The notes below the pieces were generated by a model that was not told the origin of the DNA, made no database searches, and was given only the letters and a program-made list of their open reading frames with translations. Positions 2,946-29,232 of a DNA stretch of 40,291 bases are shown in pieces. Source of the DNA: Gracilibacteraceae bacterium (GTDB lineage: Bacteria; Bacillota; Desulfitobacteriia; Desulfitobacteriales; Syntrophobotulaceae); NCBI GenBank assembly GCA_031266805.1, contig JAISAH010000099.1:1-40291 (forward strand), given 5' to 3'. Both the position numbers and the translations under genes were made by a program. Within the stretch, counting starts at the first letter, position 1. Every line of letters starts with the position of its first letter.

Positions 2946-3254
2946 TTAAAACAGGCTTTCGATGGCTTTCTGAACCACGGGTTTCTGTTTCAGGCCTTCC
3001 AGACGCTCCACTTCGGCGCCGCCTTTGTAAAGCAAGATCGTCGGGAAGCCCTTGACGCCAAGGCGCTCCTTCAGTTCGGCGTTAGCGTCGAAATCGATCT
3101 GGTACATAGGGAAATCCGGCAGGCTTTTCTCGATCTCTTTGAGGACAAAACCCAGCATCTTACATGGGCCGCAAGTCTTCGAGTAAAACTCCACCAAAGT
3201 CGGCGCCGTAATATCCAGAGTTTCGTATTCGGTTTGTGTGATTTCTTTTAACAT
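2946..3254 (-). CDS. trxA: Thioredoxin, linked to the ASST operon
   Basis: A 102-residue, single-domain thioredoxin, the usual length for the family. The active site CGPC is at residues 28-31 (FYSKTCGPCKML), and the cis-proline motif GFPTILLYKGG is intact; the Trp normally before the first Cys is Thr here. It has no signal peptide, so it is a cytoplasmic dithiol-disulfide carrier. It is the third gene of a compact operon: ASST, thioredoxin reductase (1-base gap) and this gene. The pairing gives it a dedicated NADPH-linked reductase. The operon suggests that it supplies reducing equivalents for a reaction involving the ASST; that role is inference. The thioredoxin call itself is secure. Confidence 0.93.
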   Translation of the reverse strand: MLKEITQTEYETLDITAPTLVEFYSKTCGPCKMLGFVLKEIEKSLPDFPMYQIDFDANAELKERLGVKGFPTILLYKGGAEVERLEGLKQKPVVQKAIESLF

Positions 3255-3255
3255 A

Positions 3256-4194
3256 TTATAATAATTCCTTTATATAAGCGGCGGCGCTGTTGGCGGCCAG
3301 AGCGCCGTCAGAGCAGGCGGTGACGATCTGGCGCAGCGGTTTGACCGTGATGTCGCCGGCTCCGAAGACGCCAGGCGCCGCCGTGCGCATCCGCGTGTCG
3401 GCGACGACGCAGCCGGTGCGGTCGGTAATGCCGAGATGGGCGAAAGCTTCCGAGGAAGCGGTAAAGCCGATGTATTCAAAAACGCCGTCACATGCGACGC
3501 GGCGCTCCTCCTGATCGAACTTCGCTCCCCGAAACGAGACGCCGGTGAGCCGGTCCTCGCCGGTGAAAGCCAGCACCTGCTGCCAGATATGGACATCCAC
3601 GTTCGGCAGGGCGCGCAGACGCTCGCAGGCTTTGGGATCGGCGGTCAGATCCAGGTCGGTGACGACGGTCACCCGGCGGCAGATGCTGGCCAGATACAGA
3701 GACTCCTCGACCGCCGAGTTGCCGCCGCCGACGACGACGACGTCCTTGCCCCGGTACTGCGGGCCGTCACAAACGGCGCACCAGGAGATGCCGCCGCCGG
3801 CCCAGCGGTCTTCACCGGGGACGCCCAGCCGCCGCGCCACGGTCCCCGTAGCCAAAATCACCGTTCTGGTCTTAAAGACCGCGTCGTCCTCCTCGCAATG
3901 AACGGTCTTCCACTCGCCGCCGTCATTCACTTTGGTCACGGTGCGATAGTCGAATTCCACTCCCAATTTTTGGGTATGCTCGAACATTTTGATTGCCAGA
4001 TCGGCCCCGCTCAGGCGCCCGGCACCCGGATAGTTTTCGACTTCATTCGTGTTGATGATGTTGCCGCCCGGCGCCAGGCGATCCAGGAGCAGAACCCGGA
4101 GGTTGGCCCGGACGGCGTAAATCGCGGCCGTGAGGCCGGCAGGGCCGGCCCCGACGATCACCGCGTCATAGGTTTTTTCCGCGGACAGTTCCAT
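3256..4194 (-). CDS. trxB: Thioredoxin-disulfide reductase
   Basis: A 312-residue FAD/NAD(P)H-dependent thioredoxin reductase of normal length. The FAD-binding GAGPAG is at residues 15-20, the redox-active CAVC at 139-142, the NAD(P)H-binding VVVGGGNSA near 155-163, and the closing FAD motif VFGAGDI near 275. It passes electrons from NADPH to the adjacent thioredoxin. The start used is ATG at 4194, which overlaps the ASST stop as TGATG and implies translational coupling; a TTG one codon upstream is less likely. It lies between the ASST and the thioredoxin. A second, differently built reductase is encoded at 15667-16899 in the dsr operon, so this genome has at least two specialised thioredoxin systems close together. 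Confidence 0.94.
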   Translation of the reverse strand: MELSAEKTYDAVIVGAGPAGLTAAIYAVRANLRVLLLDRLAPGGNIINTNEVENYPGAGRLSGADLAIKMFEHTQKLGVEFDYRTVTKVNDGGEWKTVHCEEDDAVFKTRTVILATGTVARRLGVPGEDRWAGGGISWCAVCDGPQYRGKDVVVVGGGNSAVEESLYLASICRRVTVVTDLDLTADPKACERLRALPNVDVHIWQQVLAFTGEDRLTGVSFRGAKFDQEERRVACDGVFEYIGFTASSEAFAHLGITDRTGCVVADTRMRTAAPGVFGAGDITVKPLRQIVTACSDGALAANSAAAYIKELL

Positions 4195-6056
4195 CAAATA
4201 CTGATCTCCACACCGGTGTCATACTTATACTCGTCGATGATCAACGAAATCTTGTAGTCGCCGGAAATATTCTCAAAGCTGATCGGCAGTTCCACGGCGC
4301 GCTCGTCGTTTTCCAGGAACGTGCCTACGCACATGGCCAGATACGGGCGCTTCGTCGTGGGGACGAAATAGGCGTGCGTCGTCTTGCCTTCTAGGAGCAG
4401 CATGACCATCTGGCCTTTTTCAAACAAAGCCTTGATCACGAGGCGGTCGGATTCTTGAGCCATCTTCAGGGCGTATTTTTCCGGCACGGCGCCGCCGGCA
4501 GGCAGATCCGGGACCGTCGTGAACTCTTCGGTGACGCCCAGCGAGCCCAGAAGCTCGCCCTTGCCGAAGGTCAGCGCGTCCTCGGGGCAGTAGAGGTCGA
4601 GTTTCTCCGCCCGGTAATAGTTGGCCGGGATCTCCAGCTCGTACATGACCTGATCGTCTTTGACCTCCACGGTGATCGAGTTAAACCGCACGCCCTCGTC
4701 CTGATAGGCCACGGGCGGCAGCTCGCACGCCTCGCCGTTCATATAACCGATACCGCCGGAATGCACGAGGTAGTGGCCTTCGCCGTAGTACTCGACGTTG
4801 CAGATATAGGAGGAAAAGAACTCCGCGCCCCGTTCCTTGCCGTACTGCCAGATCTGCTCGATCTCCATTTTTTCCGTGTCGATCCGGTAGCGCACGCCGC
4901 GGGAAAAATTATCCCTCGCCTTGACGTAGTTCTCCTTGCGTTTGGCGCGCCAATGCCCGTTGTCAAAACACATGACGTCGCCGTCCGGCAGCACCAGACA
5001 GGCGTGCTGCTCATACTGCCAGTCAAAGCGCGAGAGGTCGCCCACCGGTTTGAAGAAATACTTGTCCACCATCTCCTGCGGCCAATTGTCGGGGTCGCCG
5101 ATGATCCACTTCAGCTCGTGGTCGTCATAGCCGATGTTGATGATGATATCCTGGTGGCGCCCGGAGAAAGTCAGGCTGTGCGTTTTTTTATCATACCAGA
5201 CGGCGTTGTTATGGAACCAGTCATGCGCGTCCTGACTGCCGGAACCGCCGGTGGGGTACTGGGGCAGCACCTTCTTGTAGTCCCAGCTCTTCAGGATCTG
5301 GCCGGTGCCGCGGTCGACGAGCACGCACATATCCTCGACGGTGCCCTGCGACGGGTCTTGGGTCAAGATCAGGAGATTGCCGTCTTCCATCTCGAACTGG
5401 TCATGATGGTAGCCGCCGAACAGACGGAATTCTTTGTAAATTTTTCCAATCATGCCCATCTCAAAGAGGCCGGTCACGTTGTAAGGCGGCAGGAGCAGAC
5501 GGTTGGTACCGATGAGCAGGCGCCCGTTTTTGACCCGTTTCAGGTCGAAGGCAAAATTCAGCGTGCCGTACCAGCGCACGTCGCCCCGGTAATCGTAGGC
5601 CGCCGTGCTGGCCGGGGAAGTGGGGCTGAGGAAGACGACCTTGCCGCCGAGATAACCGGGGACGCATTTCACGCCGGTCGGCAGATGGACGGAGTCGGGA
5701 GCTTTTTCGGTGCGGATGCTGAGGGTCTTGACCGCGCCGGTCCCCAGCGTGATCTCCACAGTGTTGTCCGTCTCGGCGTACAGGCCGTAAATCGGCAGGA
5801 GGTGTTCCTTGGCCCGCGGGAAGGAAAAACCGATGTCGCCTTCCGCCTCTTTGCCTTTTACGACGACTTTTGCCTCCGTTTCCTCCGGAGTGGTGAAGCA
5901 GACCAGCGCCGTCAGGGGCGCGATCAGGTAAGGATTCAGTTTAACGTAAGGAGCGTCCAAGGTGTAGGATCCCGCTTTGATCTCCCGCAGCATCGCGGTC
6001 TCCGCCGCGTACTGCTCATCAATAACATGAGCGATTTTCTTGAGCTCGATTCCCAT
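4194..6056 (-). CDS. Arylsulfate sulfotransferase (ASST), cytoplasmic type
   Basis: A 620-residue protein of the PAPS-independent arylsulfate sulfotransferase family, with an N-terminal beta-sandwich region (about 30-120) and a six-bladed beta-propeller. Family enzymes move a sulfuryl group from a phenolic sulfate ester, through a sulfo-histidine, to an acceptor. The motifs fit the known catalytic set: YHHDQ (His218), WFHNN (His282), SGRHQ (Arg300) and YEQHA (His351, the expected sulfated His); the His-to-Arg spacing of 18 matches the E. coli enzyme as I recall it. Unlike the periplasmic E. coli enzyme, no signal peptide is visible (MGIELKKIAHVIDE). The ribosome site GGGAG precedes ATG 6056. 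It is the first gene of an operon with trxB and trxA, which is unusual for this family. Family is confident; acceptor and direction are unknown. Confidence 0.88.
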   Translation of the reverse strand: MGIELKKIAHVIDEQYAAETAMLREIKAGSYTLDAPYVKLNPYLIAPLTALVCFTTPEETEAKVVVKGKEAEGDIGFSFPRAKEHLLPIYGLYAETDNTVEITLGTGAVKTLSIRTEKAPDSVHLPTGVKCVPGYLGGKVVFLSPTSPASTAAYDYRGDVRWYGTLNFAFDLKRVKNGRLLIGTNRLLLPPYNVTGLFEMGMIGKIYKEFRLFGGYHHDQFEMEDGNLLILTQDPSQGTVEDMCVLVDRGTGQILKSWDYKKVLPQYPTGGSGSQDAHDWFHNNAVWYDKKTHSLTFSGRHQDIIINIGYDDHELKWIIGDPDNWPQEMVDKYFFKPVGDLSRFDWQYEQHACLVLPDGDVMCFDNGHWRAKRKENYVKARDNFSRGVRYRIDTEKMEIEQIWQYGKERGAEFFSSYICNVEYYGEGHYLVHSGGIGYMNGEACELPPVAYQDEGVRFNSITVEVKDDQVMYELEIPANYYRAEKLDLYCPEDALTFGKGELLGSLGVTEEFTTVPDLPAGGAVPEKYALKMAQESDRLVIKALFEKGQMVMLLLEGKTTHAYFVPTTKRPYLAMCVGTFLENDERAVELPISFENISGDYKISLIIDEYKYDTGVEISI

Positions 6057-12639: not shown

Positions 12640-12715
12640 CGTCATTCCGGGCTTGTCCCGGAATCCAAAAAACGGCGAACGTGAGAATGGATTCCGGCAT
12701 GAAGCCGGAATGACG
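12640..12715. repeat. Palindromic REP-like element in the dsrC-dsrN gap
   Basis: A 76-base element with 11-base inverted ends (CGTCATTCCGG and CCGGAATGACG) and two internal hairpins, ATTCCGGG/CCCGGAAT and ATTCCGGC/GCCGGAAT. A shorter, diverged relative lies at 15606-15659 and a half copy at 2773-2798. The plan resembles the bacterial interspersed mosaic elements of other genomes. Confidence 0.7.
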
Positions 12716-12729
12716 GGGGAAATGTAGTA

Positions 12730-13044
12730 TTATACGCAGCCGGTGGGTTTAGGCAAACCGGCGATCTTGCAGGCGCCTTTCCCGGGGCCCGAGGGGAAAA
12801 GCTCATAGATCTCCGCCTGGGACTTGCCGGTGTCTTTCAGCATTTTACGCACCATAGGCGCCACTTGGAATTCGTCATAGTAGCCGCGCAGATAGCGGAT
12901 GATCGCCCAATGTTCTTCGGTCAGATCCACCTCCTCGGTGGCGGCGATGGCGTTGGCCACCTCCTCGTCCCATTCTTCGGCGTCTTCCAGAAAACCGTCT
13001 TCATCCAGGGCCAGACTCCGGTCGCCTATTTTCAGATCCGCCAT
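12730..13044 (-). CDS. dsrC: DsrC, sulfur-carrier protein
   Basis: A 104-residue DsrC/TusE-family protein. The C-terminal arm GPGKGACKIAGLPKPTGCV carries both redox cysteines (Cys92 and the penultimate Cys103), the hallmark of true DsrC. During sulfite reduction DsrAB delivers sulfur to this arm as a trisulfide; membrane complexes then release sulfide and reset the dithiol. ATG 13044 follows AAAGGAG. It lies downstream of the dsrAB-ferredoxin unit in the same operon. Two thioredoxin-type systems encoded nearby are candidate extra reductants for it; that is inference. Confidence 0.96.
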   Translation of the reverse strand: MADLKIGDRSLALDEDGFLEDAEEWDEEVANAIAATEEVDLTEEHWAIIRYLRGYYDEFQVAPMVRKMLKDTGKSQAEIYELFPSGPGKGACKIAGLPKPTGCV

Positions 13045-13295: not shown

Positions 13296-14375
13296 TTACC
13301 ACTTGAAATTGGTCGTCGAACGCATCGTCGGGATCGAGAAGATGAAATCATCGATATGCTTATCGGAGAAGGGGATGCCGGTCCGCTTGAAAAATGACTC
13401 CCAGCCGATACGGGCGATCCATTCCGCCACCCGCTCGCCCCGGTGGGCGTCCCCCGCCCAGACTTCGACGATGTTGCGCGTCGCTTCCACGACTTCCGGC
13501 CAGCGCGGCGGGTTGTTCGGGAGGAAGGGGATCGCCAGCCGGGAAAATTCCGGCTCGATGCGGGCGTTGGAAACCTTGCCGCCCACCATGATGGCGATGC
13601 CGTCGTTCTTGGGATCGATGATCTCCATAGCCGGGGACATCGTGTAGCAGTTGCCGCAGTACATACATCTGTCTTCGGCGACGACGACGCTCTTGTTCTT
13701 GGGGTCGGGACGGATAGCCGCCGTCGGGCAGCTGGCGATAATGCTGGGGATCTCCCCCGTCTTGGCCACCCGCTCATGGTCGATGCGGGGCGGCGTGCGG
13801 TGGATGCCCAAAATGGCGATGTCGGAGCAGTGGACGGCCCCGCACATATTCAGGCAGCAAGCCATGGAAATGCGGAGTTTCGAGGGCAGGTCCGTATGGG
13901 TAAAATGTTCGTACAGATCGTCCATCACCGCCTTGACGATGCCGCTGGCGTCCGTGGCCGGGGTGTGGCAGTGCAGCCAGCCCTGGGTGTGGACGATGTT
14001 GGTCATGGAGTTGCCGACGCCGCCGACGGGCAGTTTCTTTTCCTCCAGCTCTTGCAGCAGAGGCTCGACGTTTTTTTCCTCGCCCAAGAGAAACTCCACG
14101 TTGTTGCGGCTCGTGAAACGCAGGACGCCGTCGCTGTATTTATCCGCCAGTTCGCAGATCGTGCGGACAAAAGTCAGGCTCACGAGGCGAGGCGAGCCCA
14201 CGCGCACCGTGTAGAGACCTTCGCCGGTCTCCGAAGTGTGCTTCATCACCCCCGGCCGGACAACCTCATGGTAGTCCCATTTGCCGTAATTGCGCGTGAG
14301 CACGGGGGAGAGCATGTCTTTATAGTTGGGCGGACCGATATCGGTCTTTACTTTCTTGGGAGCTTCGGCAGTCAT
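13296..14375 (-). CDS. dsrB: Dissimilatory sulfite reductase beta subunit
   Basis: A 359-residue DsrB, full length. The sirohaem/[4Fe-4S] cysteines are Cys136 ([14 protein letters not shown]), Cys173/174 and Cys178 (ACCLNMCG); their spacing matches what I recall of the Desulfovibrio enzyme. The inserted ferredoxin domain has Cys216 (SCPTAA) and CMYCGNC at 237-243. With DsrA it forms the cytoplasmic alpha2beta2 enzyme that takes sulfite to the DsrC trisulfide. In DsrAB the beta-subunit site holds the catalytic sirohaem. It starts 14 bases after dsrA, behind AGGAGG. Confidence 0.97.
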
Positions 14376-14389
14376 ATCGCACCTCCTGT

Positions 14390-15574
14390 TTATTTTTCTA
14401 AATCATCCTGATCCCAGAATACATAGGGGTTGGCCCGGGGCTGGCGCACCATCTGGGGCACGGCCGGCAGTCCGGTGGCCCGCAGGAACTCCGGCATCCC
14501 CTTGCGGTAAATGAGTTCGCCGATCCGCTCCCGGGACTTGGCGTTCTCGTCCCACCAATCCCATATTTTACCAATTAAATCCTTGAGTTCCGTGTAGGGC
14601 GGCTCCATCTTCATGAACGGGACGATGACCCAGGACATGAAGGCGGAGCGCAAAATCGTGGCCTTGCCGCCGATCAGAAGGGAGGCGCCGCGCTCTTTGC
14701 CGGGTTTCAGGGCTTTCGGCATCTTGTTGATACAGTTCATACAGCGCACGCAATTCGCGTTGTCGATCCGCACTTCTTTTTTCTCGTCGTCATAGTAAAA
14801 GGCCTTGGTCGGACATGTGTTCGTCACATAGCGGTCGATGCTCCAGCTGGCGGCGTACTCTTTTACAGCCTCCTGCCGCACCTGGATCGGCCCTTTCCAA
14901 GTGCCGATGATCGAGAGATCGGAGCGGGCGATGGCGGCCACGCAGTCGTTCGGGCAGCCGGAGATCTTGATCTTGAACTTGTACGGCCAGGCCGGGCGGT
15001 GCATGTAGTCCTGAAAAGCCATGGTCAGATCGTAGCAGAGATCAAGGGTGTCAAAACAGGCCCACTCGCAGCGGGCGGGGCCGACGCAGCTGGAGGGCGT
15101 GCGCAGGGCCGAACCGGAGCCGCCCAGGTCAAAACCCTGTTCGCTCAAGAGGTCGAAGGTCGGCTGCAGTTCCGCCGTGGTCGTGCCCAGCAAAATGATG
15201 TCGCCGGTGGCGCCGTGGAAATTGAAAAGGCCGCTGCCTTTTTCCTCCCAGATGTCGCAGATCTTCTTCAGGGTCTCCGTGTTGTAAAACCAGCCGCCGG
15301 GCTGATTGACGCGCATCGTGTGGAACTCCCGCACGTTGGGGAATTCCTCCGGCAGATCAGAGTAGCGGCCGATGACGCCGGAGCCGTAGCCCTTGACGCC
15401 CACGATGCCGCCGTGTTTCCACAGCCCCTTTTTTTCCTCATAGGACTTTTCCATCTGGCCGATGAGGTCCTCGGCCATGGCGCTGCCTTTGGCCGCCTCC
15501 CGGAGTTCGGTGACGAAACTGGGCCAGGGGCCTTTTTCCAGCTCGTCCATCATCGGGGTCTTATATTCTGTCAT
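14390..15574 (-). CDS. dsrA: Dissimilatory sulfite reductase alpha subunit
   Basis: A 394-residue DsrA, slightly shorter than the 410-440 residues usual in Deltaproteobacteria but with all key motifs. The C-x5-C (163-169, SSCVGPARC) and C-x3-C (207-211, GCPNDC) set binds the [4Fe-4S] cluster next to sirohaem. The ferredoxin domain has Cys254 (NTCPTKAF) and CVRCMNC at 275-281. It is the reductive, bacterial type by context, with DsrC, DsrMKJOP and no sulfur-oxidation genes. Upstream lies a 92-base gap with a REP-like element, so dsrAB may also have its own transcript end or start there. Confidence 0.97.
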
Positions 15575-15605: not shown

Positions 15606-15659
15606 CCCGTCATTCCGAGCTCGAGAGAGTGGATTCCGACATAAAGCCGGAATGACGGG
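15606..15659. repeat. REP-like palindrome upstream of dsrA
   Basis: A 54-base element with perfect 12-base inverted ends (CCCGTCATTCCG and CGGAATGACGGG) and an inner hairpin. It fills most of the gap between the reductase-fusion gene and dsrA and is related to 12640-12715. Confidence 0.7.
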
Positions 15660-15666
15660 TGATTGG

Positions 15667-16899
15667 TCAGTTTTCCTGAAACCACGCCCGAAGCGTCGCC
15701 TCCAGCGTGTTGTAGCAGTCGGTGCTGAGGACGCCGCAGGCCGTCTCGTTTTTGACCAGAATGAAGGTCCCCGGCGTCTGTACGTTGTACTTGCGCGCCA
15801 TCATCGTTTTGCGGTAGAGATCGATCTTGACGAGCCGCAGTTTTCCCTGGTATTCGCTGCTCAGCTGTTCCGCCTTGGCGACGGCGTTGATGCTGAATTC
15901 ATTCAGCGGGCTCCAGAAAGCGAGCAAAGTCTTGCCGGCGCCGCTCACCATCTCCCTGTATTCGTCGAATTCCTCCAGATAGCGCCCGGCGGCTGTGGCC
16001 GCCACCGCGCCGTCCGCCGCCGCCGTCACCACCTGGCGCAGATACTTCTGCCGGCAGTCGCCGGCCGCGTAAACGCCGGGCAGCGAGGTCTCCATCCTTT
16101 CCGTGGTCGGGATATAACCGCTTTTATCGGTCTCCACCTGATCTTTGACGACGGCCGTCATGGGGATCATGCCCACATAGAAAAATACGCCGTCCACCTC
16201 TCTCTCCGTCAGGGCGCCGGTCTTGAGATTGCGGATCACGAAGGAGGTCACTTCCTCGTCGCCCTTGATCTCGGCGACCGAGGAGTTCCAGACGAATTCC
16301 AGTTTCGGGTTCTTGAAAGCGATCTCGGCGCTGACCTTGTTACAATCGACTATGCCCTCGTCGTGAATGACGATCACGATCACCTTCGCCGCAAATTTGG
16401 CGATATAGCAGGCTTCTTCCAGAGCCGCGTCGCCGTTGCCGACCACCGCCACGACGCCGTCCTTGAAGTTTTCGGCGTCACAGGTCGCGCAGTAGGAAAC
16501 CCCCAGACCGCGAAATTCTTTTTCCCCCGGCGCCCCGAGCAGCCGCGGCTCGGTCCCCAGCGCGAGGATCACGCTCCGGGCCTTGTACTCCTGTCCTTTT
16601 TTCGTACGCACGGTCTTCACGTCGCCGCTAAGCTCCGCCGCGGAAACCTCGCCCCGCGCGATCTCCGCGCCGAACCTCTCCGCCTGACCGCGGAAGTCCG
16701 CCGTCAAGTCGGGGCCGGAGACGCCGGCCGGAAAGCCGGGATAATTCGCCAGTTCGCGGGTCGAATAGGCCGAACCGCCCATCCCCCCTTTTTCTAAAAT
16801 CAGCGTCCGCAGGCGGGAGCGCCCGCCATAGATCCCCGCCGCCATACCGGCGACGCCGCCGCCGATTATCATGATATCATAAATATTATCCATTGTCAT
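15667..16899 (-). CDS. Thioredoxin reductase fused to a cysteine-free thioredoxin fold
   Basis: A 410-residue fusion. Residues 1-310 are a complete thioredoxin-reductase-like flavoprotein: GGGVAGMAAG (FAD), CATC at 137-140, VVGNGDAALEEA (NAD(P)H) and VYAAGDC. Residues 320-410 form a thioredoxin fold (TLLAFWSPLNEFS, later VQTPGTFILV), in which the CxxC is replaced by NEFS at about 333-336, so this domain cannot do dithiol chemistry and may serve for docking. It overlaps the upstream thioredoxin gene by ATGA, making them a pair inside the dsr operon between dsrP and dsrA. It may transfer NADPH electrons to the CRVC thioredoxin and on to DsrC or sulfite-derived sulfur; this target is inferred. 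Confidence 0.88.
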   Translation of the reverse strand: MTMDNIYDIMIIGGGVAGMAAGIYGGRSRLRTLILEKGGMGGSAYSTRELANYPGFPAGVSGPDLTADFRGQAERFGAEIARGEVSAAELSGDVKTVRTKKGQEYKARSVILALGTEPRLLGAPGEKEFRGLGVSYCATCDAENFKDGVVAVVGNGDAALEEACYIAKFAAKVIVIVIHDEGIVDCNKVSAEIAFKNPKLEFVWNSSVAEIKGDEEVTSFVIRNLKTGALTEREVDGVFFYVGMIPMTAVVKDQVETDKSGYIPTTERMETSLPGVYAAGDCRQKYLRQVVTAAADGAVAATAAGRYLEEFDEYREMVSGAGKTLLAFWSPLNEFSINAVAKAEQLSSEYQGKLRLVKIDLYRKTMMARKYNVQTPGTFILVKNETACGVLSTDCYNTLEATLRAWFQEN

Positions 16900-17213
16900 A
16901 ACTCCGCTATTTTTTCGCGCACCATATCTTCGGAGACCGGTCCGGCCATTTTGCCCTGATAGTCGCCGCCGCTGAAAAACATGACCGACGGCACTCCCTT
17001 GAGCGGGAAGCGCTGATAGAGCGGCGCCTCCTCCTCCACGTCGACGGCGTAGAAGGCGCAGACGTCATGGAGTTCCGGCTCCAGTTCCTCCAGCATGGGC
17101 ACGACTTCCTTGCAGACACGGCAGTTTTTCCGGGAAAACACAACGATACACTTGCCCGAGCCCTGCATGACTTTTTCCTCGAACGTTTCCTGATTCAGTT
17201 TCTCAAGCGCCAT
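16896..17213 (-). CDS. Thioredoxin-like protein of the dsr operon (CRVC)
   Basis: A 105-residue thioredoxin-fold protein with active site CRVC (residues 31-34, SRKNCRVCKEV) and the cis-Pro motif KGVPSVMFF. CRVC in place of CGPC suggests a different redox potential and a specialised partner. There is no signal peptide. It is translationally coupled to the reductase fusion and lies 76 bases after dsrP, within the dsr gene train. It is clearly different from the ASST-linked thioredoxin at 2946-3254. Confidence 0.88.
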   Translation of the reverse strand: MALEKLNQETFEEKVMQGSGKCIVVFSRKNCRVCKEVVPMLEELEPELHDVCAFYAVDVEEEAPLYQRFPLKGVPSVMFFSGGDYQGKMAGPVSEDMVREKIAEL

Positions 17214-17289: not shown

Positions 17290-18444
17290 TCAGGCTTCCT
17301 CATGCCTGACGGCTATCACCACCTTGTAAAGCGCCGTCAGCACCAGAGCACCGATGGCATAAACTCCCAACAAAATCAGGATCTCGATCCCGGTCGGGCT
17401 GTAGTCATGAACTTCGCCGAAAGGCGAGGGGACGAAACCGGCGAGGACGAGGCCGACGCCCTTGTCCAGCCAGCAGGCCAGAAAGACCGCCGCCAGACCC
17501 CAGGGCAAAAGCGTGAGGCTGCGACGCCAGCGCGGCGTGATGAGCAGGGTCAGACCCGCGAAGGCCAAGAAGGCCGCCGCCCACATGAAGGGCGTCAGGG
17601 CGTGAAGCCCTTCCAGCCCGAAGAACAGGTAGGACAGCGACTCGGCGTGAGCCGGGACGCCGCTGTAAGTCGCGGTGAACACTTCCAGCAGGAAGAAAAA
17701 CACATTGGCCGCCATGGCGTAGGCGACGACCTTGGCCAGCGAGGTCACCGCCCCGTCTTCTAGGCGCAGGCCGGCCCGGCGGCGGAGCAGGAGGCAGATC
17801 AAGATCAGCAGGGCCGGTCCCGCCGCGAAAGCGGAGGCCAGAAACCGCGCCGCCATGATCGCCGAGAGCCAGTAGTGGCGGCCGGGAAGACCGGCATACA
17901 GGAAGGCCGTCACCGTGTGGATGCTCACCGCCCAGGGGATGGCCGCGATACTCAGCCCGTGCGCCCAGCGCGGCGGCGAGACGCCTTTTTTCTCCGCGCT
18001 CAGCATAGTCCAGCCGATGGTGATATTCAGCAGCAGATAACCCGCCAGCACGCACATATCCCAAAACATGACCGAATGGGGCGAAGGATGCAGGAGGACG
18101 TTCAGCACCCGGGCCGGCTGGCCGAGATCGACGAAGATGAACAGCATACAGACGACGACGGCGCTGACCGCGAGAAACTCCCCCAGGATCACGACCGGTT
18201 TGAAGACCTTGTGATTATGGAAATAGTAGGGCACGGCGACCATGACCGCCGAGGCCGCGACCCCGACCATAAAGGTGAATTGGGCGATATAGAGCCCCCA
18301 GGAAACATCGCGGGTCATGCCGGTGACGCCCAGACCGTGCCGGAGCTGATAGAGCCAGGCCAGGACGCCGGCGGCGATCACGGCGAGAAGCAGCGCCAGC
18401 CAGGCGTAGTAGACTTTGCCGCCGCGCAGGGCTTTTTCAAGCAT
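17290..18444 (-). CDS. dsrP: DsrP, NrfD-like quinone-interacting membrane subunit
   Basis: A 384-residue integral membrane protein of the NrfD/PsrC family with about ten hydrophobic helices (YYAWLALLLAVIAAGVLAWL, then SWGLYIAQFTFMVGVAASAV, and so on). DsrP exchanges electrons with the quinone pool and the DsrO/DsrJ arm of the DsrMKJOP complex. The start is ATG 18444, overlapping the dsrO stop by 8 bases and preceded by GGAGAGGAG; a longer frame to 18612 lies inside dsrO and is rejected. A hairpin, GTCAGGC/GCCTGAC (17289-17310), sits over the stop codon and may stabilise the upstream mRNA. Confidence 0.93.
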   Translation of the reverse strand: MLEKALRGGKVYYAWLALLLAVIAAGVLAWLYQLRHGLGVTGMTRDVSWGLYIAQFTFMVGVAASAVMVAVPYYFHNHKVFKPVVILGEFLAVSAVVVCMLFIFVDLGQPARVLNVLLHPSPHSVMFWDMCVLAGYLLLNITIGWTMLSAEKKGVSPPRWAHGLSIAAIPWAVSIHTVTAFLYAGLPGRHYWLSAIMAARFLASAFAAGPALLILICLLLRRRAGLRLEDGAVTSLAKVVAYAMAANVFFFLLEVFTATYSGVPAHAESLSYLFFGLEGLHALTPFMWAAAFLAFAGLTLLITPRWRRSLTLLPWGLAAVFLACWLDKGVGLVLAGFVPSPFGEVHDYSPTGIEILILLGVYAIGALVLTALYKVVIAVRHEEA

Positions 18445-19210
18445 CGGCCTCAACTCCTCTCCACAGATAATGAACGTTCGGCCCGGTACCCAGTTCCGCC
18501 TTGCGGCGCAGGCTGAAATTGGCCGCCAGCAGCCGGCGGGGGGCCGAGTCCGGGTCGGCCAGATCGCCGAAGACGACCGCGCCCCCGGAAGCCTCCGCGC
18601 AAAGGGGTTCAAGACCCAGGCGCAGGCGTTCTTCGCAGAAGTCGCATTTTTCGACGACGCCCAGAGCGCGGGTCGGGTAATCCCCCCGGATCTCGTCCAG
18701 ATAGCGGCGCGGATCGGTAAAATTAAAACTGCGGGCGCCGTAAGGGCAGGCGGCCATGCAAAAACGGCAGCCGATACAGCGGTGATAATCCATCATGACG
18801 ACGCCGTCCGCCCGCTTGAACGTCGCCTCCGTCGGACAGACGCGGCAGCAGGGCGGGGATTCGCAGTGATTGCAGAGGACCGGCAGGCTGAGCGCGCGCG
18901 GATCTTCCGCGTAAGGGGCCTCCCATTCCGGGAAAACGCGGTCAAAACTCTCGCCCCACAGCCACTTCACCTCATGGCCGGGCTCCGTGACGGCGGGCAC
19001 GTTATGCCCCTCGTGACAAGCCCGGCTCATGCGGGCGATGTCCTCCGCCGTCAAACGCCGCCAGTCGACGACCATGCCATAGCGGACGCTCTGCCCGCCG
19101 CCGCCCGGCGGGAGCAAGGCGGCGCCAAAAGCCGGCAGGAGGGCTGTCCCGGCCAAAATAGCCCCGCCCAGCCCCAGAAAACGGCGACGGCTGATCTTTT
19201 TCCCGCTCAT
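18437..19210 (-). CDS. dsrO: DsrO, periplasmic-side ferredoxin subunit
   Basis: A 257-residue iron-sulfur protein with a Tat signal (SRRRFLGLGG at residues 7-16, then a hydrophobic stretch), which marks export in folded form. Four cysteine blocks follow: CNHCESPPCCRVC, CIGCRFCMAAC, CDFCEERL and an extra Cys near CHEGHNVP. It connects the DsrJ cytochrome to DsrP in the DsrMKJOP complex. It overlaps both dsrJ (ATGA) and dsrP, so the JOP genes are tightly coupled. Length and motifs are normal for DsrO. Confidence 0.94.
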   Translation of the reverse strand: MSGKKISRRRFLGLGGAILAGTALLPAFGAALLPPGGGGQSVRYGMVVDWRRLTAEDIARMSRACHEGHNVPAVTEPGHEVKWLWGESFDRVFPEWEAPYAEDPRALSLPVLCNHCESPPCCRVCPTEATFKRADGVVMMDYHRCIGCRFCMAACPYGARSFNFTDPRRYLDEIRGDYPTRALGVVEKCDFCEERLRLGLEPLCAEASGGAVVFGDLADPDSAPRRLLAANFSLRRKAELGTGPNVHYLWRGVEADA

Positions 19211-19584
19211 GACTTCGCCCCCGCGCTGTGATGGCAGTCCCAGCAGTCCGGATTTACCGCCGTGTAAGCGTGACAGGCGTCACAAAATTCCTCACGGTTG
19301 GCGTGGCAGGTCAGGCAGTTTTCCTCAAAACCGATGTGCGCGCCCCCGGCGCTCAGATCCAAGGTCTTCCCTTCCCGGACGCTGACCGTCCGCCACTCGT
19401 CCAGGATCTGCATATGCCGCTCGCGCATTTCCGCCGCCGAAAACAGACATTCCTCCCCGGCGGCGGCGCTGATTACCACCTCCGGCGCCGCTGTGACGCT
19501 GTTTCCGACATTCAGCCAGAATGGGGCCGTGAACAGGGCGAGGAAGAAAATCAGGCCGATCATGATTTCTTTTTCCTTCATCAT
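19207..19584 (-). CDS. dsrJ: DsrJ, triheme cytochrome c
   Basis: A 125-residue protein with an N-terminal uncleaved anchor or signal (IMIGLIFFLALFTAPFW) and exactly three CxxCH haem c motifs: CLTCH (90-94), CDACH (101-105) and CWDCH (114-118). Cys46 (GEECLFSAAEM) is a candidate for the unusual Cys haem ligand described in DsrJ. It faces the outside of the membrane. It overlaps dsrK by ATGA and dsrO by ATGA. Confidence 0.95.
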   Translation of the reverse strand: MMKEKEIMIGLIFFLALFTAPFWLNVGNSVTAAPEVVISAAAGEECLFSAAEMRERHMQILDEWRTVSVREGKTLDLSAGGAHIGFEENCLTCHANREEFCDACHAYTAVNPDCWDCHHSAGAKS

Positions 19585-21209
19585 TGCGCCTCCCCTCCTT
19601 CTCCCGCCGTCTCATCCCGCCTGGGCAGTTCCTCCGTTCGCAGATCCAGCGTCCGCTCTATCTCCCCGTCCAGCACCAGAGCGTTGCCTACGAGCTCATG
19701 CAGGCCCATGACTTTCGTCCCCGGCACCCAATAGTCCATGATCGGCGGAAACGAGGCCCGGTCCAGAGCGCAGATGTTCGCCAGTACGTTGACGCCGTGT
19801 TTTTCCTTCACTTCCCGCACGGCGTTAGCCCGGGGAAAACCGGCGCGCAGACGAAGCTCCATGTTCTCCCCGGCGTTCAAACCGCTGCCGGAGCCGCAGC
19901 ACAGAGTCTTCTCCCGGATGGTGTCCTCGGCCATCTCGTGAAAATTATTGCAAACTTTTTTCAGCACATAACGTGGCTCGTCCAGCAGACCCATGCCGCG
20001 GGCCGTATTGCAGGAGTCGTGAAAAGTGACGATCAGGTGGTCGTTGCGCGCGGGGTCGAGTTTCAGTTTGTCATGATACATCAGATCGGCGGTAAACTCC
20101 GCGATATGTACCATTTTCGCGGAGCGGGCGTTTTCAAACCGGGTGCCGGTAACGGGCGAGACCGGCGTCTCCAGAAAATCAGCCGGGCCGTTCCAAGTGT
20201 CCATATACTGATTGACCAACCGCCACATATGGCCGCACTCGCCGCCCAAAATCCACTTCACGCCCAGTCTTTTCGCCTCGGCGTACATCTTGGCGTTCAG
20301 GCGCTTCGCCATCTCATTGGAGGTGAAAAAACCGAAATTCCCCCCCTCGGAAGCGTAAGTGCTGATGGTGTAGTCGAGTCCCAGCTGCTCAAAGAGCATG
20401 AAATAGCCCATGCAGGTGTAGATGCCCGGTTCGGCGAACAGGTCGCCGGAAGGGGTGATAAAGAGGATCTCGGCGCCCTTGCGGTTGAAAGTGGGCTCAA
20501 TGCGCTTGCCGGTAATCGTCTCCAGATCGTCGAGCATGAACTCGATATTGCTCAGGATGGTCTGCGGTTCCAGGCCCACATGGTTGCCCTTCATGTAGCA
20601 ATTGGCCACCGGGCCGGCGATCCAGTCGGTGTTCAGGCCGACCAAGTTCAGGAGCTCGCGGCCGATGATGGTGATCTCGGCCTGATCGATGCCGTAAGGG
20701 CAGAACACGGAGCAGCGACGGCATTCCGTACATTGGAAAAAATAATACCACCACTCCTTGAGGACGTCCAAAGTCAGATCGCGGGCCCCGGCCAGTTTGC
20801 CCAGCCGGCCCGCCTTCGTGAAATAACGGCGGTAGACGGAGCGCAGGAGTTCCGCCCGGAGAACGGGCATATTCTTGGGGTCGCCGGTGCCCAGGTAAAA
20901 ATGACATTTGTCGGCGCAGGCGCCGCAGCGCACACAGATGTCCATGAAAAGGCGAAAAGAGCGATATTTCTCCAAACGCTCGGCCATGCCGGCCAAAATG
21001 ATCTCCCGCCAGTCCTCCGGCAGTTTCCAGTCTTCTTCGGCCGGCGACCAGTCACGGGCGTTCGGCATGCCCACGGTTTCCAGGTTTTTGCCCTTGGCGC
21101 CGTAACAATACATGCCGGGGCGCAGCTCAGCCTTGGTCTCCCGCCAGGGGGCCGGGGCCGTTCCGAGGCTGTATTGCGTTAATTCAGCTTTTTTAGGCAG
21201 TTTAGCCAT
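19581..21209 (-). CDS. dsrK: DsrK, HdrD-like catalytic iron-sulfur subunit
   Basis: A 542-residue protein. Two [4Fe-4S] ferredoxin motifs (CVRCGACADKCHFY and CTECRRCSVFCPYG) precede a heterodisulfide-reductase-type C-terminal domain with DSCNTARGMG, LCCGSGSG and NICALD. The end HELVGNAL is typical of DsrK. DsrK faces the cytoplasm and is the expected site where the DsrC trisulfide or disulfide is reduced. It lies one base after dsrM. Its cysteine pattern differs from the second K-type protein at 22190-23779, which keeps a CAPCSNC motif. Confidence 0.95.
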   Translation of the reverse strand: MAKLPKKAELTQYSLGTAPAPWRETKAELRPGMYCYGAKGKNLETVGMPNARDWSPAEEDWKLPEDWREIILAGMAERLEKYRSFRLFMDICVRCGACADKCHFYLGTGDPKNMPVLRAELLRSVYRRYFTKAGRLGKLAGARDLTLDVLKEWWYYFFQCTECRRCSVFCPYGIDQAEITIIGRELLNLVGLNTDWIAGPVANCYMKGNHVGLEPQTILSNIEFMLDDLETITGKRIEPTFNRKGAEILFITPSGDLFAEPGIYTCMGYFMLFEQLGLDYTISTYASEGGNFGFFTSNEMAKRLNAKMYAEAKRLGVKWILGGECGHMWRLVNQYMDTWNGPADFLETPVSPVTGTRFENARSAKMVHIAEFTADLMYHDKLKLDPARNDHLIVTFHDSCNTARGMGLLDEPRYVLKKVCNNFHEMAEDTIREKTLCCGSGSGLNAGENMELRLRAGFPRANAVREVKEKHGVNVLANICALDRASFPPIMDYWVPGTKVMGLHELVGNALVLDGEIERTLDLRTEELPRRDETAGEGGEAQ

Positions 21210-22170: not shown

Positions 22171-22189
22171 CGCAGCGCCGCGCCTCCTT

Positions 22190-24567: not shown

Positions 24568-24586
24568 CCGCCCGCCTCCTTCCTTG

Positions 24587-24904
24587 ACACATGTCCAAAC
24601 ACTCACTCATCGCGTCTCTGCCGGTAATTCTGAGTGTTTAGAAGTATCTTATTAATCAGTGTACAAAATCACAAGCGCTCTGTAAAATAGCGATTTTTTA
24701 TGCCGCTATCAATTTGGCATATGGCCGCGCTTGATTTTTCCTTAGGATACCTCTAAATACTCAGAGTCGATGCCTCCGCCAGCAATTTTCCCGTCAGGCT
24801 AGGCGGAGGAGGGAGGCATACCCGGGGCGGTATGGTGACTGACGACAACGACGCCTGACGGGAAAAGGGCGGCGGGGGCGCGACGAGTGAGTATTTAGAG
24901 GTGT
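24587..24904. repeat. Nested inverted repeats upstream of the dsr operon
   Basis: Four related ends of the type TGAGTRTTTAGARGTRTC occur here: 24631-24648 (plus), about 24753-24770 (minus) and 24887-24904 (plus), with a fourth, weaker relative near 24587-24614 (minus). The second and third enclose about 150 bases that also hold TTTTCCCGTCAGGC (24786-24799) and its complement (24852-24865), and CCTCCGCC/GGCGGAGG. The plan is that of a small, non-coding miniature transposon, or of a repeated regulator site. No gene is seen in 24568-24907. Confidence 0.6.
24658..24686 (-). promoter_or_regulatory. Candidate promoter of the dsr operon
   Basis: On the minus strand TTTACA (24681-24686) and TACACT (24658-24663) are 17 bases apart, about 90 bases upstream of M2. 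Just upstream lie AATCAAGCGC and GCGCTTGTGATT, an imperfect inverted pair, and ATAGCG/CGCTAT, which could be regulator sites. Confidence 0.4.
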
Positions 24905-24907
24905 CCC

Positions 24908-25804
24908 TTATATCATTTGGATCAGCAGTTTCGTCTCCTCCGGGGTGAGACTGCTCCGCTTGGATTTCAATAAGATGAAAGTATAGTCGAACTCCGCTTC
25001 CCTGGAGCGCACGGGCACGAGGCGCAGCTTGTACTGCTCCGGGATGCCGTTATTGACACATTTGTCATGCATGGCGAACCCGACGCCTCCGCCGTCCCCC
25101 AACGCTTGCCAGAAAAGGCTGCTGTTGGAAGTAGAAAGGACGATGTTCGGCTCCCCGTAGCGGCGGAGGGTGTCCAGCACCATGACGCTGCCGTCCAGAT
25201 ACTCGAAATTCACGAGGGGGAGCTTCAGGATCTCCGGCACGGAGGTGGATTTCAGGCGCGAGAGCGGCAGTTTTTCGCTGACGCAGGCCACGAGCCGGTC
25301 GTTGGCGGATTTTACCACGTCCAGTTCCATCTCCTCATAGTCGGCCTGCCGGTACTCGCGCCGCGGCATCAGGAGCATACCGCCGCTCTTGCTGGCGTTC
25401 CGGAGTTCTTTGAGGATCCCCTCCCGGGATTTGTTGACGACAGTGATCTGAAAATCCGGCTGCTGGCGGCAGAAAGCCGCGACTTTCCGGCCCACCAGTT
25501 CCGGATTGATATTGAAGGGCAGGTAAAACTTGAAATGACATTCGCCGCGGGCCGGCCGCCCGATCTGTTTCAGCTCGCCGACCTTCGCCAGAATCTCCCC
25601 GGCGATCTGGACAAAACGCTCCCCTTCCGGCGAGAGGCTGACTCCCCGCGAACTGCGGCGGATCAAAGTGACGCCGAACTCGTTTTCCAGCTTGCGCAGC
25701 GAGTTGCTGATATTCTGGGGGGTCACGAACACTTCTTCCGCCGCCTTGCTTATAGAATGAGTTTTGCTGACTGCGATCAAATATGATAATTGTTCAAATT
25801 GCAT
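24908..25804 (-). CDS. LysR-family regulator next to the permease-ASST operon
   Basis: A 298-residue LysR-type regulator with an N-terminal helix-turn-helix (HSISKAAEEVFVTPQNISNS) and an effector-binding domain (FYLPFNINPELVGRK; LVNFEYLDGSVMVLDTL). The start ATG 25804 follows AGGAGGAG. It is divergent from the SLC13 permease and lies just upstream of the dsr operon on the same strand, so it could control either side. It differs clearly from the CysL-like regulator at 10212-11168. Its ligand may be a sulfate ester, by gene context only. Confidence 0.88.
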   Translation of the reverse strand: MQFEQLSYLIAVSKTHSISKAAEEVFVTPQNISNSLRKLENEFGVTLIRRSSRGVSLSPEGERFVQIAGEILAKVGELKQIGRPARGECHFKFYLPFNINPELVGRKVAAFCRQQPDFQITVVNKSREGILKELRNASKSGGMLLMPRREYRQADYEEMELDVVKSANDRLVACVSEKLPLSRLKSTSVPEILKLPLVNFEYLDGSVMVLDTLRRYGEPNIVLSTSNSSLFWQALGDGGGVGFAMHDKCVNNGIPEQYKLRLVPVRSREAEFDYTFILLKSKRSSLTPEETKLLIQMI

Positions 25805-26204: not shown

Positions 26205-27758
26205 ATGGAGACTGTAGAAAAGCTCAAACTGTCTTACAGCAAGGAGTTCCCGAAGTTTCTGATTTTCGCGGGCATCTGTCTCGCGGGCTGGCTTCTGGCC
26301 TTCGCCTTTCCTGTCTCGGCTGAGGACCCCACCACGAATGCCGGTCTCACCCAGATCGGCATCCGCACGCTCTTTGTGTTCATCGCTTGTGTCTACGGCT
26401 GGAGCGCCACGACCGAAGTCTGGCCCAGTATGCTGGCCTTCTGTCTCCTGCCCCTGACGGGCAGCATCACGACCACAGCCCTGCTCGCCGCGGGCTTTGG
26501 CTCCGATCTCGGATTTTTCACCATCGTCCTCTTAGTCTTTATCGGTTATCTTACCCAGATGGGCGTACCCCGCTACATCGCCAACTGGATGCTGACCAGG
26601 AAGATTCTGGCCGGCCACCCCTGGCGTTTTTTCTTCACCGTCCTCTTTGTCACTTGGTTCCTCTCCACCATCAACAACTTCATGGCCGCCTTCCTGATGT
26701 GGAGCATCCTCTACGGCGTCTTTGAAAAAGCCGGCTACAACAAAGGCGACAAATTCTGCACCTACAGCTTCTTTGGCATCGGTCTCTGCGTCGGCGTATC
26801 CCTCTCGGCCATGCCCTGGTCCATGAACGCCATGGTGCTGCACGGCTTCCTGAACCAAACCTTGGGCGTGCCGGTCGACGTGGCCAAATACCTGGCTTTT
26901 TCCATTCCTTTCTCCCTCATTTCGATCGTTCTCTATCTGATCCTCTGCAAATTCGTGTTCCGGGTGGATCTGCAAGGCCTGAAAAACGTCGACATGAGCT
27001 TCATCCCCAAAGAGGAACTGGAAATTACTCCCAGCCGTGGCCTCGGCCTCATCGCCCTCGCCGCGCTCATCCTCATGATGATTGTGCCGGTCTTTACGGT
27101 AAACGTCGCGGCGCTCGCCGGCTTCAACGCGGTCATGGCCAGTTTCGGCTATACCGGCAAATGCCTGGTCATCATCAGTATACTGGTCATCTTCAAGCTC
27201 GGCGAGAACCGGCTCTTTGAGTTTGACAAATTCGCCGCCGGCCTGAAATGGGGCGTCATCGGCATCATCTGGATCGTCGTGCCGCTCGGCTCCTGCCTGA
27301 CGAACCCGGCCTCCGGCATCCAGGCCTTTCTGCGCTCCTCGCTCGTGCCCATGGTGCAAGACCTGGACTTTTTCGTCTTTGTCATCATCGTCACCGCGCT
27401 TGTCGTCCTCATCACCAATTTCATGGCTAACATGCCCGTCTGTATGATGTTCGCTCCCATCGCTTTCCAGATGGCGGCGGCCAACGGCGTCGCCGAAGAA
27501 CAGATCGGCTATCTTCTCATCGTGGCCTGCACCATCGCCTGGTTGGTCCCCTCCTCCTCGCCCGCGGGCATCTTGCTCTATATGAACCCGGAATGGCTGA
27601 AACCGAAAGATATAATCCGGATCGGCATCCCGGCCATGGTCATGTGCGCCGTCATCGCTCTTATCTGCTACTGGTTCATTTTGCAGCCTCTGTTCTCCGG
27701 CATACCGCCTGTCGCCGAGCGTGCCGCTGTTGACGCCGCCATTAGTTTGTTGCCCTGA
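26205..27758 (+). CDS. SLC13/DASS-type anion permease
   Basis: A 517-residue membrane protein with a dozen or so hydrophobic helices, in the style of the SLC13/DASS (divalent anion:sodium symporter) and related ArsB/CitT superfamily: two repeated halves with N-x-M/N-F-M-A turns (STINNFMAAFLMW; ITNFMANMPVCMM) and LVPSSSPAGILLY near the end. These carriers take up dicarboxylates, sulfate or other anions. The start ATG 26205 follows GGAGG; a longer open frame starting at 26100 lacks a ribosome site. It stands before an ASST and an MFS gene in one operon, so an organic sulfate ester is a reasonable substrate, though only by context. Confidence 0.85.
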   Translation: METVEKLKLSYSKEFPKFLIFAGICLAGWLLAFAFPVSAEDPTTNAGLTQIGIRTLFVFIACVYGWSATTEVWPSMLAFCLLPLTGSITTTALLAAGFGSDLGFFTIVLLVFIGYLTQMGVPRYIANWMLTRKILAGHPWRFFFTVLFVTWFLSTINNFMAAFLMWSILYGVFEKAGYNKGDKFCTYSFFGIGLCVGVSLSAMPWSMNAMVLHGFLNQTLGVPVDVAKYLAFSIPFSLISIVLYLILCKFVFRVDLQGLKNVDMSFIPKEELEITPSRGLGLIALAALILMMIVPVFTVNVAALAGFNAVMASFGYTGKCLVIISILVIFKLGENRLFEFDKFAAGLKWGVIGIIWIVVPLGSCLTNPASGIQAFLRSSLVPMVQDLDFFVFVIIVTALVVLITNFMANMPVCMMFAPIAFQMAAANGVAEEQIGYLLIVACTIAWLVPSSSPAGILLYMNPEWLKPKDIIRIGIPAMVMCAVIALICYWFILQPLFSGIPPVAERAAVDAAISLLP

Positions 27759-27795: not shown

Positions 27796-29232
27796 ATGGG
27801 TTATCCGACTGTCCACCCCAAAGGGGTCACCATCTACAAGCCCGAAAAATGCTGGAACGGCTTCACCGTCTTTGGCGTCACCGGCATGGGCGCGGTCCTT
27901 ATGGACATGAACGGCGCGGAGATGCGCGTCTGGAAAGGGGTCTACGGTTTTCCCCACAAGCTTTTCCCCGGCGGATATCTGATGGGCGCTCACGGCGAGC
28001 GCAATCCGGCCTACGGTTTTCAGGACACTTTGGATCTCGTGCAGTGGGACTGGGACGGCAACATCGTTTGGAAATACGACGGCACCGAATATATTGAAGA
28101 TCCCGGCGAAAAAGCCGGCTGGCAGGCGCGGCAGCATCACGACTATCAGCGGGAGGGCAATCCCGTGGGCTACTACGCGCCGGGTCTGGACCCCAAGACC
28201 GACGGCGGCAGCACTCTCGTCCTCTGTCACCGCAACGTCTCTAACCCTAAAATTTCCAATTACCTTCTCGTCGACGACATCATCGTCGAAACCGACTGGG
28301 AAGGGAAGAAGATCTGGGAATGGGCCTGCAGCGACCATTTTGACGAATTAGGCTTTGACCAGACGGCGAAAAACAGTCTCTATCACAACCCGAATCTCCG
28401 CACCGGCGGCACCTTAATGGGCGACTGGATGCATATCAACTCCATGTCGGAACTCGGCCCCAACAAGCGCTACGACGCCGGCGACGAGCGTTTCCACCCG
28501 AAAAATATCATCTGCGACGGCCGGGAGACGAATATCCTTTTCATCATCGACAAAAAAACGGGCAAGATCGTCTGGAAGGTCGGCCCCGACTACAGCCAGG
28601 GCCCGGAGAAAAAACTGGGCTGGATCATCGGCCAGCATCACGCCCATATGATCCCCAAGGGTCTTCCGGGCGAAGGCAATATCCTCGTCTACGACAACGG
28701 CGGCTGGGCCGGCTACGGCGCGGTGAACCCCGCTTCCAAGGACGGCACGAAAAACGCCTGGCGCGACTATACCCGTATCCTGGAGTTCAACCCCGTGAAC
28801 ATGGAGATCGTCTGGCAGCACACGCCGGCGGAGGACGGCCACTCCATGCCTTTCAACAACAGCCATTTCTACAGTCCTTTCGTCAGCTCCGCCCAGCGGC
28901 TGCCCAACGGCAACACTCTGATCTGTGAAGGCTCGGAAGGCCGCTTCCTGGAAGTGACCGCGGCCCATGAGACGGTCTGGGAATACCTCAGCCCCTACAA
29001 TTCCATGGGCAGCCTGAACATGGTCTACCGCTGCTACCGCGCGCCTTACGCTTGGGCGCCGCAGGCCCGGCATACGCCGGAAATCGGGATCGAGCCGATC
29101 GAGTGCGCTTCCTGGCGCGTTCCCGGCGCGTCCAATGACCGCCTCTCCGAGGTCGATATCCCGGACTGCGTCATCCATGAAGCCGTGGATCCCTCCCGCT
29201 CTCTCTGCATCGGCGGTATCGAAGAAGACTAG
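27796..29232 (+). CDS. Arylsulfate sulfotransferase-like protein, short form
   Basis: A 478-residue ASST-family beta-propeller without the N-terminal sandwich domain and without a signal peptide. Candidate active-site residues are ARQHHDY (His115), WMHINSM (His213), ERFHPKN (Arg232) and GQHHAHMIP (His282/284), the same order as in the ASST at 4194-6056. Blade-type repeats such as NIVWKYDG, KIVWKVGP and EIVWQHTP (hydrophobic-x-W at strand ends) are clear. ATG 27796 follows TAAGGAGG. It is between an anion permease and an MFS carrier. Since it is cytoplasmic, its donor would have to be imported. It could transfer sulfuryl groups between phenols or to another acceptor; substrates are unknown. 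Confidence 0.85.
   Translation: MGYPTVHPKGVTIYKPEKCWNGFTVFGVTGMGAVLMDMNGAEMRVWKGVYGFPHKLFPGGYLMGAHGERNPAYGFQDTLDLVQWDWDGNIVWKYDGTEYIEDPGEKAGWQARQHHDYQREGNPVGYYAPGLDPKTDGGSTLVLCHRNVSNPKISNYLLVDDIIVETDWEGKKIWEWACSDHFDELGFDQTAKNSLYHNPNLRTGGTLMGDWMHINSMSELGPNKRYDAGDERFHPKNIICDGRETNILFIIDKKTGKIVWKVGPDYSQGPEKKLGWIIGQHHAHMIPKGLPGEGNILVYDNGGWAGYGAVNPASKDGTKNAWRDYTRILEFNPVNMEIVWQHTPAEDGHSMPFNNSHFYSPFVSSAQRLPNGNTLICEGSEGRFLEVTAAHETVWEYLSPYNSMGSLNMVYRCYRAPYAWAPQARHTPEIGIEPIECASWRVPGASNDRLSEVDIPDCVIHEAVDPSRSLCIGGIEED

Follow-up and report, generated by a model that had tools for sequence, protein, structure and literature searches.

The locus examined here raises the question of why a thioredoxin (Trx) and a thioredoxin reductase (TrxR) should be encoded in the middle of a dsr operon. 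In the window, i.e., the whole stretch of 40,291 nucleotides from a Gracilibacteraceae bacterium that was analysed, both genes lie on the minus strand between dsrP and dsrA, as the first-pass annotation had read them: a Trx of 105 amino acids (16896..17213) with the active site CRVC at residues 31-34 (17112-17123), and a TrxR of 410 amino acids (15667..16899) with the redox site CATC at residues 137-140 (16480-16491). The Trx gene begins 76 bp behind dsrP, overlaps the TrxR gene by 4 bp, and the TrxR gene is followed by dsrA after 92 bp. Family searches and motif reading support both assignments, and both proteins depart from the standard types. The Trx matched PF00085 (58.7 bits, E=6.5e-16) and shares the PF00085 fold and a CxxC motif with canonical TrxA, but has CRVC in place of WCGPC and missed the TIGR01068 equivalog (50.7 bits against a cut-off of 96.8); nearly all relatives of this CRVC protein carry CHVC. 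The TrxR matched PF07992 (E=2.9e-45) and had TrxR structures as the top fold matches of its predicted structure, although its TIGR01292 score of 337.9 bits was slightly below the cut-off of 343.45; the CATC site is present in all 67 of its relatives. A plasmid search with the Trx returned no match.

The dsr operon around the pair is complete for dsrABC and dsrMKJOP, with all genes on the minus strand. Upstream lie dsrM (21211-22221), dsrK (19581-21209), dsrJ (19207-19584), dsrO (18437-19210, assigned by position and by its ferredoxin-like sequence) and dsrP (17290..18612 as the longest open reading frame; the NF045798 match of 449.4 bits starts from residue 57, and the true start is probably further in). 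Downstream follow dsrA (14390..15574; TIGR02064, 554.9 bits against a cut-off of 392.85), dsrB (13296..14375; TIGR02066, 497.5 bits against 341.5), and dsrC (12730..13044), which was identified by family search and by its sequence, including both C-terminal cysteines (C92 and C103). Between trxR and dsrA lies a palindromic repeat of 54 bp with perfect arms of 12 bp (15606..15659), so that a single transcript across this junction is not certain; the repeat is compatible with a secondary joining of the pair to the dsr genes. A half-site of the palindrome occurs behind dsrC (12706-12716). The REP-like element flanks the dsrABC block, and a related copy was seen on contig C113.

The C-terminal part of the TrxR (residues 321-410; 15670..15939, minus strand) is a redox-dead domain of thioredoxin fold. 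Its predicted structure, a beta-alpha-beta-alpha-beta-beta-alpha succession, was obtained with high confidence (mean pLDDT of 89 for the whole protein), and alignment of the region to the Trx family profile (95.3% probability, E=2.2e-8) placed the stretch NEFS (15892-15903) under the CxxC column; a weak PF00085 match covers residues 313-388. The structure prediction of the fusion and the profile alignment confirm the earlier claim of a fused thioredoxin fold with NEFS in place of CxxC; the same claim erred in calling the domain cysteine-free, since C388 and C395 are present, though not as CxxC. A CxxC at the thioredoxin position was found in none of the 67 TrxR-fusion relatives, one of which carries an unrelated CxxC at the very end of the chain, and the recent decay of an active fusion was set aside because all relatives are dead at this site. 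A TrxR with a C-terminal thioredoxin fold is also known from NTRC and from the TR-Trx fusion of M. leprae; the Trx domain of these proteins has an active CxxC, whereas here the motif is lost family-wide and the neighboring gene encodes a separate Trx. The dead domain may possibly dock this CHVC/CRVC Trx. Docking of DsrC, the other partner that had been suggested for it, is unlikely and was set aside, since the domain is equally dead in relatives beside ASST/AP genes (67 fusions) and is common to relatives that have no link to dsr. In genome G000, contig C40 (L011) carries a second TrxR fusion without Trx, beside LeuCD-, PrpD-, PrpF- and PrpB-like genes, and a near-duplicate fragment at the opposite contig end.

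The electron source of the reductase had been given as NADPH, a reading that the sequence does not support: the motif HRRxxxR is missing in the window TrxR and in all 67 relatives, whereas it is present, as HRRNEFR, in an ordinary TrxR encoded by the host genome. The motif GxGDxAxEE and the TrxR fold are retained, which makes NADH as likely as a ferredoxin or a membrane donor.

The occurrence of the pair in other dsr operons had been named at the outset both as a check on its proposed function and as a point on which the proposal could fail. The pair was found in none of the 17 other dsrA contigs of the order, within a surveyed stretch that was short for several contigs. The window thus has all dsr genes of the dsrAB-dsrMKJOP-dsrC operons of this order, but it is the only one of 18 loci with the pair between dsrP and dsrA, and its gene order is rearranged. 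A weaker link was seen in two congeners and in Pelotomaculum. The TrxRs of the congeners G002 and G004 are 77-78% identical to that of the window. In two congeners, the gene order is DsrM-like, DsrK-like, Trx, TrxR, and ferredoxin; the first two genes, directly before the Trx-TrxR pair, are relatives of the DsrK-like paralog K2 (22190-23779, minus strand) and the DsrM-like paralog (23779-24606, minus strand) of the window. The small 2[4Fe-4S] ferredoxin gene overlaps the TrxR stop in these congeners (L128:11554-11754, L129:8267-8518), and its product is a possible electron donor or acceptor. The DsrK- and DsrM-like paralogs precede dsrM in the window and precede dsrA in many relatives; in the two relatives inspected, a CoA-disulfide-reductase-like gene stands between the paralogs and dsrA. 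In Pelotomaculum propionicicum, dsrA is preceded at approximately 4.5 kb by an AP fragment and a Trx; a probable MFS transporter and a TauE-family protein are encoded in the intervening stretch. The dsr-linked TrxRs group together as a single clade with three members (98% SH-aLRT), whose branch is long and of uncertain depth.

A different and more regular neighborhood emerged when named genomes were searched with only the Trx as query, which yielded 79 loci, dominated by Desulfosporosinus and not independent of each other; AP, ASST, Trx and TrxR profiles, built from the neighbors in relatives from the order, were then applied to these loci. In 57 of the 79 loci (36 AP, 21 ASST), an AP or ASST gene lay no more than 1 kb away and in every case on the same strand, the distance being within 300 bp in 53; five further loci had one at 1.0-1.9 kb, and 17 loci had none within 2 kb, some of them at contig ends and others genuinely. 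A TrxR gene was within 1 kb of the Trx gene in 66 loci, and in 64 of these the TrxR carried the dead domain. Viewed from the ASST side, a CHVC-type Trx occurred within 3 kb of 13 of the 37 ASST domains in relatives from the order, where 0.2 would be expected. The commonest gene order is LysR, transporter, AP or ASST, Trx, and TrxR, and the genera with this module include Desulfosporosinus, Desulforamulus, Pelotomaculum, Clostridium, Enterocloster, and Lachnoclostridium, together with a MAG of the Desulfohalobiaceae. The Trx and the TrxR fusion of the window are homologous to those of the module and contiguous as in the module, and no ASST or AP gene adjoins the dsr-linked pair itself; the nearest ASST genes, one on each flank of the dsr operon, lie at a distance of approximately 10 kb. 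The Trx-TrxR pair of the window belongs to a conserved, widespread set of genes that in most cases stands behind an enzyme handling sulfate esters. The first-pass annotation had also offered a sulfonated carrier from the ASST route as the target of the pair, and this suggestion gains strong support from genomic context, in the contiguity of Trx-TrxR with ASST/AP genes in many genera. A description of the module was not found in the open literature (preprints and most subscription journals lay outside the scope of the search); the component families are known, and their union and the reaction proposed below appear to be new.

The tree of TrxR sequences shows how freely the partners interchange: the partner label (AP, ASST or dsr) switches no fewer than 10 times, and at least two changes between AP and ASST are forced by well-supported branches, so that two unrelated group-transfer folds draw on one Trx system. 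The transporters of the module vary as well (BCCT, MFS, DASS, TRAP, and taurine/sulfonate-type ABC), which would be expected if the compounds handled differ between paralogous modules; in three Clostridium loci, AP-Trx-TrxR comes after genes for taurine/sulfonate-type ABC transporters, and one of these loci was scanned against families. As a second marker, the sulfite exporter TauE/SafE was found in one of the 79 loci only, in Pelotomaculum. MttB-type methyltransferase and corrinoid-protein-like genes occur upstream of AP-Trx-TrxR in L130 and L124, and BCCT transporters in L120, L121 and L180; these neighbors hint at sulfated quaternary amines as substrates. In gut Peptococcaceae (L193, L194, L203), a lone CHVC Trx lies beside a DNA exonuclease-like gene with no ASST, AP or TrxR gene nearby, and the Trx may serve another purpose there.

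Of the four ASST genes in the host, two flank the dsr operon in the window. The ASST of the long type (4194..6056, minus strand; 620 amino acids) has no signal peptide; in an alignment to E. coli AssT (3elq) its His, His and Arg residues match, with catalytic roles that we take to be those of AssT, one of the aligned catalytic His residues reads asparagine in entry 4p04, and the two-cysteine disulfide loop of E. coli AssT is absent. Directly behind this gene follows a second Trx/TrxR pair (2946-4197), on which the first-pass annotation was silent: a TrxR of 313 amino acids (3256..4197, minus strand), overlapping the long ASST by 4 bp, and directly behind it a Trx of 102 amino acids with TCGPC (2946..3254, minus strand). 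The three genes form a tight cluster (2946-6056) whose arrangement recurs in L220 and L228 and, in a shortened version, in L227; this distantly related type of Trx/TrxR stands directly behind an ASST not only in the window but also in one congener and in a further genus of the order. The ASST of the short type (27796..29232, plus strand; 478 amino acids) is preceded by a CitMHS-type anion transporter (26208..27758, plus strand), and a LysR regulator (24908..25804, minus strand) is divergent from both. It carries invariant His and Arg residues; the structure, predicted from a shallow alignment (mean pLDDT of 70), was used for fold assignment only and gave Cpz4 as the top match. The conserved Cys471 falls in a tail predicted with low confidence, and a cysteine at 4-24 residues from the C-terminus is found in 18 of 18 short ASSTs, the tail being otherwise variable.

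The AP enzymes of the module, read against members of PF01663, retain the Thr nucleophile and the metal ligands of the AP superfamily. Members of PF01663 are typically phosphodiesterases, and the module enzymes give weak matches to PafA and phosphonoacetate hydrolase models; their assignment to sulfuryl chemistry is suggested by genomic context. Some cysteines are conserved in both the AP and the ASST families. None of the 68 module proteins (45 AP, 9 short and 14 long ASST) has a strongly hydrophobic N-terminus, and these enzymes are thus most likely cytoplasmic, unlike the AssT of enterobacteria. On contigs C53 and C136 of the host genome, a CHVC Trx lies beside AP genes with no reductase next door.

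The Trx is also associated with the genetic potential for sulfite reduction. Among 41 genomes of the order, dsrA accompanied the Trx in 15 of 15 relatives and was present in 3 of the 26 that lack the Trx (Fisher P=1e-8, uncorrected for kinship). The host, which is probably gut-dwelling, and four congeners had no sat match and no aprA over the cut-off in their assemblies, which are incomplete (95% completeness for the host); elsewhere in the order, a single other genus has both sat and aprA, in seven genomes. A gene of the NIR_SIR family, which includes assimilatory and nitrite enzymes, occurred in 23 of 25 module genomes and was not found in the other two, but it was also present in most control genomes, which makes this family a weak indicator.

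The sharing of the pair by two enzyme folds, the second Trx/TrxR type behind an ASST, the co-occurrence with dsrA, and the absence of sat and apr are best explained by a role of the Trx as acceptor or releaser of the sulfuryl group. We consider it an even call that the Trx/TrxR family of this pair is specialised in the reductive release of sulfite from organic sulfate esters. Slightly more tentatively, and a little short of even confidence, we propose an undescribed pathway of reductive desulfation, in which a cytoplasmic ASST or AP transferase and its dedicated Trx/TrxR would convert a sulfate ester to alcohol and sulfite, the ester would serve bacteria with dsr or other sulfite reductases as electron acceptor without ATP-dependent activation of sulfate, and the Trx system would be the physiological acceptor of bacterial ASSTs. 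The presence, order and conserved residues of the genes are observed, and the chemical steps that we infer from them would run as follows. A dedicated transporter, suggested by the neighboring genes, would import the ester. A cytoplasmic sulfuryl transferase would take SO3 onto a His in the ASST beta-propeller, whose family has an established sulfuryl-transfer chemistry, or, by extension, onto the Thr of the PF01663 AP enzyme. The SO3 would then pass to a cysteine thiolate of the Trx or of the transferase itself (e.g., Cys471 in the tail of the short ASST), forming S-sulfocysteine, and by analogy with APS/PAPS reductases the Trx dithiol would expel sulfite and become a disulfide. The TrxR would re-reduce the Trx, probably not with NADPH, the motif being absent, with the dead Trx domain presumably positioning the partners; the dsr-linked TrxR may also serve the orphan CHVC Trx proteins beside AP genes on C53 and C136. 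Sulfite would finally enter DsrAB, DsrC and DsrMKJOP, or other sulfite reductases elsewhere, as the presence of these genes suggests. Ordinary sulfatases need formylglycine to release sulfate to water; with a thiol as acceptor, formylglycine would not be needed. As a caveat, the role of the dsr-linked pair of the window may have changed: it is less certain than that of the module, since the pair lies approximately 10 kb from either ASST, the long ASST has a Trx/TrxR pair of its own, and the dsr-linked reductases form a distinct, long-branched clade.

Other explanations accommodate parts of this evidence. The soluble route that had been proposed for the pair, in which it would reduce DsrC trisulfide and bypass DsrMK, finds its arguments in the placement between dsrP and dsrA and in the DsrM/DsrK-like paralogs that adjoin the pair in two congeners; yet the 17 other dsrA contigs lacked the pair in their surveyed stretch (short in several cases), DsrC and DsrMKJOP are complete and leave this route unsupported, relatives of the pair stand beside non-dsr enzymes, tied to ASST/AP and occurring in genera such as Enterocloster, and the palindromic repeat at the dsrA junction is consistent with secondary joining, so that we regard it as very unlikely. 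The same paralogs, followed by Trx, TrxR and the ferredoxin in two congeners, raise the prospect that in the genus of the window a DsrM/K-like paralog or the 2[4Fe-4S] ferredoxin supplies electrons to the Trx system or withdraws them from it, and links sulfite release to energy conservation. The lack of HRRxxxR in the reductase would agree with such a donor, but comparable neighbors were not noted in the other loci inspected, and a reductase that keeps GxGDxAxEE and the TrxR fold could use NADH equally well; this variant appears rather improbable, and it modifies the reductive release of sulfite without excluding it.

The pair could alternatively keep the cysteines of ASST and AP enzymes reduced and the enzymes active, as a cytoplasmic counterpart of DsbA or DsbL/DsbI, in which case the products would be sulfate or sulfated acceptors and not sulfite. 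Some cysteines are indeed conserved in both families, and enterobacterial ASSTs of the AssT type have thiol oxidoreductases (DsbL/DsbI, DsbA) encoded beside them (PMC13426309); those systems are periplasmic and oxidising, whereas the pair considered here is cytoplasmic and reducing. We consider this explanation unlikely, since the long ASST of the window lacks the E. coli disulfide loop, to equip every one of a genome's several paralogous modules with its own Trx and reductase would be costly for housekeeping, the pair is common to two unrelated enzyme folds, and the Trx co-occurs with dsrA. Finally, the retained Thr nucleophile and metal ligands of the AP enzymes, the phosphodiesterases that typify PF01663, and the weak matches to PafA and phosphonoacetate hydrolase would suit a module acting on phosphate or phosphonate esters, with a secondary association to ASST. 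This is highly improbable in view of the equal contiguity of the same pair with ASST, the interchange of partners on the tree, and the sulfonate-type ABC transporter before the AP gene in Clostridium; moreover, thioredoxin has no evident role in phosphoester cleavage.

The reductive release of sulfite has its closest chemical precedent in the APS/PAPS reductases (CysH), which form an S-sulfocysteine intermediate on a cysteine of the C-terminal tail and have sulfite released by Trx. The likeness lies in this proposed chemistry, including the cysteine on a C-terminal tail; the donor here would be an organic sulfate ester and not APS or PAPS, the folds are those of ASST and AP, ATP activation is not involved, and homology is not claimed. 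In agreement with this distinction, the pair and the window ASSTs matched other Pfam families and no CysH/PAPS-reductase family. With the PAPS-independent aryl sulfotransferases (E. coli AssT, D. hafniense DhAST, and Cpz4), the ASSTs share PF05935/PF14269 and the catalytic His and Arg, but differ in having no signal peptide and no E. coli-type cysteine loop, and in their coupling to Trx/TrxR; a protein thiol as acceptor of an aryl sulfotransferase was not reported in the literature searched.

According to a 2026 review that does not mention thioredoxin, it is unknown for most bacterial aryl sulfotransferases which role they play and what their natural acceptor is (PMC13426309); the present proposal supplies a candidate for such an acceptor. 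If the Trx thiol fills this role, organic sulfate esters would be respiratory electron acceptors that spare the ATP cost of sulfate activation, which would explain the several ASST genes in genomes with dsrAB but without sat and apr, and sulfide formation in guts and soils would gain an entry that is missed by sat/apr screening. Related modules in gut Clostridia, for example in Enterocloster bolteae, carry the question beyond the sulfate reducers.
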